Shown here piece after piece: positions 21,438 through 28,142 of a stretch of 64,000 bases of DNA (position 1 is the stretch's first letter; each line of letters opens with the position of its first letter). A program made the position numbers and the translations under genes. The DNA lies in contig NZ_CP026994.1 of NCBI RefSeq assembly GCF_013407165.1, forward strand, positions 248,001 through 312,000. The letters run 5' to 3'. Source of the DNA: Nitrosopumilus oxyclinae. Its GTDB lineage: Archaea; Thermoproteota; Nitrososphaeria; Nitrososphaerales; Nitrosopumilaceae. The notes below the pieces were generated by a model. The model did not search any database. It was given only the letters and a program-made list of their open reading frames with translations, and had not been told where the DNA came from.

Positions 21438-21511
21438 GGGCCCGTAACTCAGCTTGGTAGAGTAACCGGCTCATAACCGGTGAGCCAAGGGATCGAAGCC
21501 CTTCGGGCCCA
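21438..21511 (+). tRNA. tRNA with CAT anticodon (elongator Met or Ile2)
   Basis: A 74-nt cloverleaf. The acceptor GGGCCCG pairs perfectly with CGGGCCC, the D stem is ACTC/GAGT, and the anticodon stem ACCGG/CCGGT holds the loop CTCATAA. The first pair is G-C and the anticodon stem lacks three G-C pairs of the GGG/CCC type, so it is not an archaeal initiator. Elongator Met and agmatidine-modified Ile2 tRNAs share this anticodon and cannot be told apart here. The T loop reads ATCGAAG, with A rather than T at position 54. CCA is not encoded. Confidence 0.92.
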
Positions 21512-21523
21512 TTATTTCCATTA

Positions 21524-21533
21524 GTTTTAAAAT
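21524..21533 (+). promoter_or_regulatory. Predicted TATA box for the C/D guide RNA candidate
   Basis: GTTTTAAAAT centred near 21528 predicts transcription from about 21554, exactly where the short inverted ends of the RNA candidate begin. Confidence 0.4.
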
Positions 21534-21553
21534 GAGCGAATTAAAAATTATCT

Positions 21554-21617
21554 GGCCGCAATGAAGAATCAGAGTTATATCTGAATTGATGATTGGAAGG
21601 CATTTGACTGAGCAGCC
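21554..21617 (+). ncRNA. Candidate C/D box guide sRNA
   Basis: In order: terminal TGGC/GCCA-type flank, C box ATGAAGA (21561-21567, one mismatch to RTGATGA), a 13-nt spacer, D' box CTGA (21581-21584), C' box TTGATGA (21586-21592), a 15-nt spacer and D box CTGA (21608-21611), then the 3' flank. This layout is that of archaeal dual-guide sRNAs, which direct 2'-O-methylation of rRNA or tRNA through L7Ae, Nop5 and fibrillarin. A TATA box sits 26 nt upstream of the predicted 5' end, and no reading frame covers the stretch. Targets were not searched. Confidence 0.5.
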
Positions 21618-21622
21618 AAAAC

Positions 21623-22228
21623 TCATTTGTTGATTTGTTTTTTTACCTTTTCTAAGATGTTTGCATCAATTAGATTTTGATCAAACAAAGCCTCTGTAAT
21701 TTGTAAAATATTTAGAATTGAGTGTATTTTAACTCCTAATTCTAACAATGCTTCATCAGCCCCCTCCATCCGATTTACAATCACATATGCATCTTTTACT
21801 GTGATGTTTACTTCTTTCAAAGACTTGATGGCATTAACTACTGAACCCCCCGTGGTTGCAACATCATCGATCATTACAACTTTCATGTTATCGTGAATTT
21901 TCCCTTCGACTGATTTTGATGTTCCATAATCTTTTGGCTTGCTTCTTACATAGATTAACGGTTTTACGGTTTCAATTGCCAATGCTGATGCAATTACTAG
22001 ACCTCCTGTAGGTACTGACACAATTGAATCAAAATTATCTAATCCAATATCTTGCCCAATCTCATTTTCAAGATATTTCACCATTTTTCTAAATTCAATA
22101 GGATAACTTGGGACTAATCTCAAATCTACATAATACGAACTCTTTTTTCCACTGGCTAATGTAAAGTCACCAAATTTTATGATGCCATTTTGATGCAAAA
22201 AGGTTGCAAACTCTTTTACAAATTCCAT
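21623..22228 (-). CDS. pyrE: Orotate phosphoribosyltransferase
   Basis: A 201-aa type I phosphoribosyltransferase that joins orotate to PRPP in pyrimidine synthesis. The PRPP-binding motif VVMIDDVATTGGSVVNAI is intact at about 117-134, and the YVDLRLVPSYP block and FGDFTLASGKKSSYYVD opening fit PyrE. It is divergent from the gene at 22279, with about 50 bp between them. Confidence 0.92.
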   Translation of the reverse strand: MEFVKEFATFLHQNGIIKFGDFTLASGKKSSYYVDLRLVPSYPIEFRKMVKYLENEIGQDIGLDNFDSIVSVPTGGLVIASALAIETVKPLIYVRSKPKDYGTSKSVEGKIHDNMKVVMIDDVATTGGSVVNAIKSLKEVNITVKDAYVIVNRMEGADEALLELGVKIHSILNILQITEALFDQNLIDANILEKVKKQINK

Positions 22229-27938: not shown

Positions 27939-28002
27939 TATTTTGAGCATTTTTTAAAATTGGCGTTACGTTAATAGATGAGAATTTGACATCAAATTTC
28001 AA

Positions 28003-28115
28003 GCCGGCCATAGCGTTAGGGTGCGACCCAATCCCGTTCCGAACTTGGAAGTCAAACCTAATGTCGCTGTTGTGCTACTAAGATGCGAGAGCTCTTGGGA
28101 AGCAACAGTGCTGGC
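28003..28115 (+). rRNA. 5S ribosomal RNA
   Basis: The 5' end GCCGGC pairs with the 3' end GCTGGC, and the conserved loop CCCGTTCCGAACTTGGAAG is intact, followed by the TACT and GCGAGAGCTCTTGGGAA helix. At about 113 nt it is a little shorter than most archaeal 5S genes, so the true ends may extend a few bases. It stands alone with no 16S or 23S gene in the window, and lies head-to-head with ABCE1. Confidence 0.92.
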
Positions 28116-28142
28116 ATTTTCTACTTTTCAATCAATCTTTTA

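Follow-up and report, generated by a model that had tools for sequence, protein, structure and literature searches.

A conserved candidate double-guide C/D box RNA of Nitrosopumilus oxyclinae with predicted targets in H69 and H71 of 23S rRNA

The gap between the tRNA-Met(CAT) gene and a convergent open reading frame in the genome of Nitrosopumilus oxyclinae (a single contig of 1.585 Mb) raises the question of whether it encodes a small guide RNA of its own and, if so, which ribosomal sites such an RNA would serve. The locus was analysed within a stretch of 64,000 nucleotides, hereafter the window, in which a sequence-only reading had proposed a C/D box guide RNA with its own promoter between the CAT tRNA and pyrE. 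Both neighbours are found where that reading had placed them (Table 1), and the open reading frame is presumably pyrE, judging from the frame itself. The analysis leaves little doubt that a double-guide C/D box sRNA is encoded here and transcribed from its own promoter. On sequence grounds, it is a real small RNA that is absent from the annotation and occurs throughout this archaeal group.

As shown in Table 1, the boxes can be read directly in the order C-D′-C′-D with spacers of 13 and 15 nt, as had been proposed, and the short terminal complementarity that had been noted corresponds to a covarying stem, which contains one C.A mismatch in the window. The extent given earlier, 21524-21617, contains the RNA, although its coordinates take in the promoter; both guides named there were located, but the second had been given 2 nt too short at its 5′ end. 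The C-D′-C′-D pattern, in either strict or relaxed form, has this locus as its sole match on both strands of the 64 kb, and no match was found in 60 shuffled windows. The locus has the features by which archaeal C/D box RNAs are recognized, namely the ordered boxes C, D′, C′ and D, guides of approximately 10-15 nt, and a terminal stem joining C and D, with box C one base off RUGAUGA. The deviating base, an A at the fifth position, was not counted against function because it is conserved in the genus and could pair with the second base (U) of box D in the k-turn. A T-rich run on the sRNA strand at 21633-21642, just within the 3′ end of the pyrE-like frame, could be the terminator of the sRNA.

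Table 1. Positions in the window of the candidate guide RNA, its parts and its neighbours.
Feature	Position	Strand	Basis or remark
Candidate C/D box guide RNA	21553..21618	+	Estimated mature extent, based on the terminal stem
TATA-like promoter element TTTTAAAA, inside conserved TTAGTTTTAAA	21525..21532	+	Genus conservation and A+T peak in 56 loci
Terminal stem, 5′ half, TGGCCGC	21553..21559	+	Stem covariation
Box C, ATGAAGA (fifth base A, not U)	21561..21567	+	Read directly
D′ guide ATCAGAGTTATAT, 13 nt, core TCAGAGTTA	21568..21580	+	Predicted to pair with 23S 2014-2022 (H69); N+5 = A2015 = E. coli A1912
Box D′, CTGA	21581..21584	+	Read directly
Box C′, TTGATGA	21586..21592	+	Read directly
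D guide TTGGAAGGCATTTGA, 15 nt, pairing part AAGGCATTTG	21593..21607	+	Predicted to pair with 23S 2038-2047 (H71); N+5 = A2041 = E. coli A1938
Box D, CTGA	21608..21611	+	Read directly
Terminal stem, 3′ half, GCAGCCA	21612..21618	+	Stem covariation
tRNA-Met(CAT)	21438-21511		5′ neighbour of the guide RNA
Convergent ORF, read as pyrE	21623-22228		3′ end faces the guide RNA

The search for guide complements in rRNA and tRNA that had been recommended as a check returned a 23S rRNA site for each guide. The guides were scored against the 16S, 23S and 5S rRNAs, the 16S-23S spacer and four tRNAs, and the best match of each lies in the H69-H71 region of 23S rRNA, the two sites being 26 nt apart. The D guide pairs at all 10 of 10 positions of its stretch, whereas the D′ duplex in the window is without Watson-Crick pairs at the three bases adjoining D′. 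Alignment to the E. coli 23S rRNA places the bases given by the N+5 rule at A1912 (D′) and A1938 (D). In the comparison with 16S and 23S rRNA, the guides adjacent to D and D′ are complementary to rRNA and form a Watson-Crick pair at their fifth base. Scores as good as these are reached by 7-9% of random 15-mers for a single guide, while a nearby pair with such scores occurred in 1 of 4000 random genome pairs. Since single-guide matches are common by chance, the case for the targets rests on the pair of guides together with their conservation.

Among the 42 relatives with recovered 23S rRNA, the D core AAGGCATT or a one-base variant of it pairs in 41, the contig of the exception ending early, and the D′ core usually pairs at 8-9 of 9 positions. 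Guide-target covariation was sought in the same 42 relatives, in which, the early-ending contig aside, the targets are invariant. The D-guide base that varies in the genus is the unpaired base adjoining box D, and the D register gives A1938 as the N+5 base in 55 of 55 loci.

For the D′ guide, the site could be either A1912 or A1913. Among 45 parsed loci, the N+5 base is A1913 in 28 and A1912 in 13, including this genus, and the shift from A1913 to A1912 arises from one additional nucleotide that separates the guide core from the D′ box. It is quite conceivable, though not the reading we favour, that the D′ half acts on A1913 with the extra base tolerated, or that it no longer methylates and merely aids folding. 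The majority register among the parsed loci, the missing Watson-Crick pairs next to D′, and the position of yeast Am2256/human Am3739, for which the 25-nt spacing to Am2281/Am3764 points to A1913, all agree with such an interpretation. However, strict counting from the perfect CTGA leads to A1912, the genus conserves the GTTA-NNN-CTGA spacing, and A1912 lies within a predicted methylation hotspot of hyperthermophiles, where Dennis et al. describe dense predicted sites around this base (PMC4644070).

The promoter claimed at TATA-box distance is supported by TTAGTTTTAAA, which is conserved in the genus between tRNA-Met and the guide RNA at promoter distance, and by the base composition upstream of 56 loci with unrelated neighbours. 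In the window, the TATA-like TTTTAAAA lies approximately 26 nt upstream of the RNA, its centre being approximately 25 nt from the stem. Over the 56 loci, the A+T fraction rises to about 0.9 between −27 and −22 relative to the model start, compared to about 0.5-0.6 at nearby positions, and a TATA-like element is found approximately 25 nt upstream at most loci, regardless of the neighbours. This peak at TATA-box distance supports a putative independent promoter. The guide RNA lies 42 nt downstream of tRNA-Met, an order kept in the genus members examined, and tRNA-sRNA fusions have been described in a review (PMC7994747); the RNA could be imagined as processed out of a read-through transcript of tRNA-Met, like some archaeal tRNA-sRNA dicistrons, instead of being the product of an independent gene. 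We regard this as improbable, because the conserved TTAGTTTTAAA stands at promoter distance between the two genes and because none of 30 loci outside the genus has an adjoining tRNA, yet the TATA-like element persists. The neighbouring tRNA-Met is absent at all of these 30 loci, which were retrieved with 1.5 kb flanks, which indicates that the guide RNA is maintained in its own right, independently of the tRNA and pyrE.

The genus-only alignment was too uniform to judge the terminal stem; therefore, a phylum-wide set of 56 loci was taken. Standard pairs occupy 89% of the cells in this set, a value that includes a bias towards pairing as the alignment was fitted to the tested structure. All six stem pairs show changes on both sides, with 52 double-change cells compared to 14.6 in shuffles, and none of 500 shuffles reached 52. 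When the stem partners are shifted by one base, pairing falls to 28-41%.

An absence of the boxes from related genomes, which the sequence-only reading had named as evidence that would speak against it, was not observed; boxes and guides are conserved in the genus, the class and much of the phylum. An 86-bp segment of the locus is present in 84 of 95 genus genomes. A covariance model built for the guide RNA (R1), which was used for the class, phylum and own-genome searches, found it in 266 of 300 class genomes, representing 61 of 69 genera, and in 154 of 300 phylum genomes, nearly always as one copy per genome. In the own genome, the guide RNA scores 98.7 bits against 18.5 bits for the next-best match, and none of the weak matches (13-18 bits) was convincing as a second C/D RNA. 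An alignment of 66 sequences, taken from the genus and close members of the family, shows the stretch from box C through box D and TTAGTTTTAAA to be nearly invariant; the variable parts are the promoter-stem spacer, the D′-C′ loop and the flanks. A few close relatives (G027, G050) gave no match to the guide RNA, which is probably due to fragmented assemblies. A search for both guide cores in named genomes, a set apparently without the relatives, gave two bacterial chance matches only. Box motifs are short and single-guide rRNA matches are frequent by chance, but the idea that other conserved intergenic DNA, such as a regulatory element of tRNA-Met or pyrE, mimics C/D boxes is practically untenable, as it is already refuted by conservation apart from both neighbours, stem covariation and fixed guides, and as the box architecture is expected about 0 times per window.

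The RNA almost certainly directs methylation of two ribosomal adenosines; its expression, sRNP assembly and methylation of the predicted sites are what we infer. By analogy with known archaeal C/D box biochemistry, L7Ae, to our knowledge a ribosomal protein of all archaea, would bind the C/D and C′/D′ motifs, and Nop5 and fibrillarin would then assemble on the RNA. The genes for fibrillarin and the Nop domain protein (Nop5) adjoin in the own genome (C1:1261200-1262982). The two guides would pair with neighbouring 23S stretches in H69 and H71 and thereby position fibrillarin on these sites during ribosome assembly, where it would methylate, at the 2′-OH, the target base opposite the fifth guide nucleotide upstream of D or D′. 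The predicted targets are A1938 (own A2041) for the D guide and A1912 (own A2015) or A1913 for the D′ guide.

The Rfam gathering score was reached by no family, either for the window RNA or for 18 distant relatives. The best match was sR20, with 24 of 44 bits, and the sub-threshold matches were nearly all C/D box RNAs whose boxes aligned with those of this RNA. Membership in the existing Rfam C/D families (sR20, sR11, SNORD15 and others) was rejected, as the scores are below the gathering cut-offs. The closest likeness is to the archaeal C/D sRNAs of the sR families of Sulfolobales, Pyrococcus and Pyrobaculum (PMC4644070, PMC7994747), which share the box order, spacing and length of about 60-65 nt, the k-turn type terminal stem, two guides to nearby rRNA sites, the N+5 rule, and the H69/H71 region, which belongs to the methylation hotspots H68, H69 and H71 of Dennis et al. 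(PMC4644070). In contrast to the fast guide turnover of archaeal C/D sRNAs (reviewed in PMC7994747), the guides here are stable across the class and much of the phylum, and the RNA has a conserved promoter of its own, whereas a TATA-like motif accompanies only about 20% of the studied archaeal C/D genes (PMC7994747). In the text of openly readable papers, no description of such sRNAs was found for either Nitrosopumilus or Nitrososphaera; the additional files of PMC4644070, for instance, may already list crenarchaeal orthologues.

A further likeness concerns the eukaryotic guides. The SNORD15/U15 consensus shares AGGCAUUUGNCUGAG with the D guide and box D, nearly letter-identical and in the same register, and the D guide fits the same adenosine as U15/SNORD15 and snR13, yeast Am2281/human Am3764. 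We take yeast Am2281 to be E. coli A1938, from the shared guide register and the yeast sequence. SNORD15 differs in its far longer model of 146 positions, and the match to it reached 15.5 bits of a gathering score of 75. The sites served by these guides are human Am3764 (U15) and yeast Am2281 (snR13), and 25 nt upstream lie those of U46 and snR63, human Am3739 and yeast Am2256 (PMC8817022, PMC5199042). The D′ guide resembles snR63/U46 in its predicted guiding of 2′-O-methylation in H69, 5′ of the U15/snR13 site. However, snR63/U46 is a separate RNA in eukaryotes, whereas the D′ guide here is the second guide of one RNA, and strict N+5 counting in this lineage gives a site one base further 5′ (A1912).

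Because the rRNA target is invariant, common descent with U15 is indistinguishable from convergence. It is possible, but rather unlikely, that the guide RNA was inherited vertically from the Thermoproteota ancestor or an even older one with a D guide homologous to that of U15/snR13. If this were true, it would join the small number of methylation guides that can be followed from archaea to eukaryotes, against the usual rapid turnover of guides. Guides for methylation in archaea are described as fast evolving and largely specific to single lineages, with rich sets known chiefly from hyperthermophiles; here, a lineage of mainly mesophilic ammonia oxidisers retains one two-guide RNA nearly unchanged across its class and a large part of its phylum. 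RNAs of this kind are familiar, and what stands out in this new member, which lies outside Rfam at the gathering threshold, is the unusual stability of its guides and the depth of its conservation. Compared with an average guide RNA, it is of greater interest for the breadth of its conservation, its separate promoter and the likeness of one guide to U15; the collected set could be used directly to seed a new Rfam family. If the methylation is confirmed, it would be an old ribose methylation at the subunit interface, for which it could be asked whether guide and site were inherited together.

Several minor observations concern the guides and the rRNA of single lineages. In one genus member (L035), a shorter spacer before D′ places the predicted H69 site at A1913 instead of A1912. 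At three distant loci (L170, L171 and L172), a different D′ guide has taken the place of the usual one beside an unchanged D guide, and the new D′ guide of L170 and L172, TACTCCCG, is by eye complementary to CGGGAGTA in the same H69 segment, which appears to be a module swap keeping the target region. An insertion is found in the 23S rRNA of 8 of the 42 relatives with recovered 23S (L212, L214, L215, L217, L218, L220, L221 and L222), at own position ~2027 (E. coli ~1924) exactly between both target sites, with approximately 0.7-1.9 kb between the matched parts. It is probably an archaeal rRNA intron, in which case both guide targets would be neighbours only after splicing. A single 5S rRNA gene lies in the window at 28000-28119, far from the 16S-23S operon (C1:623744-628361).
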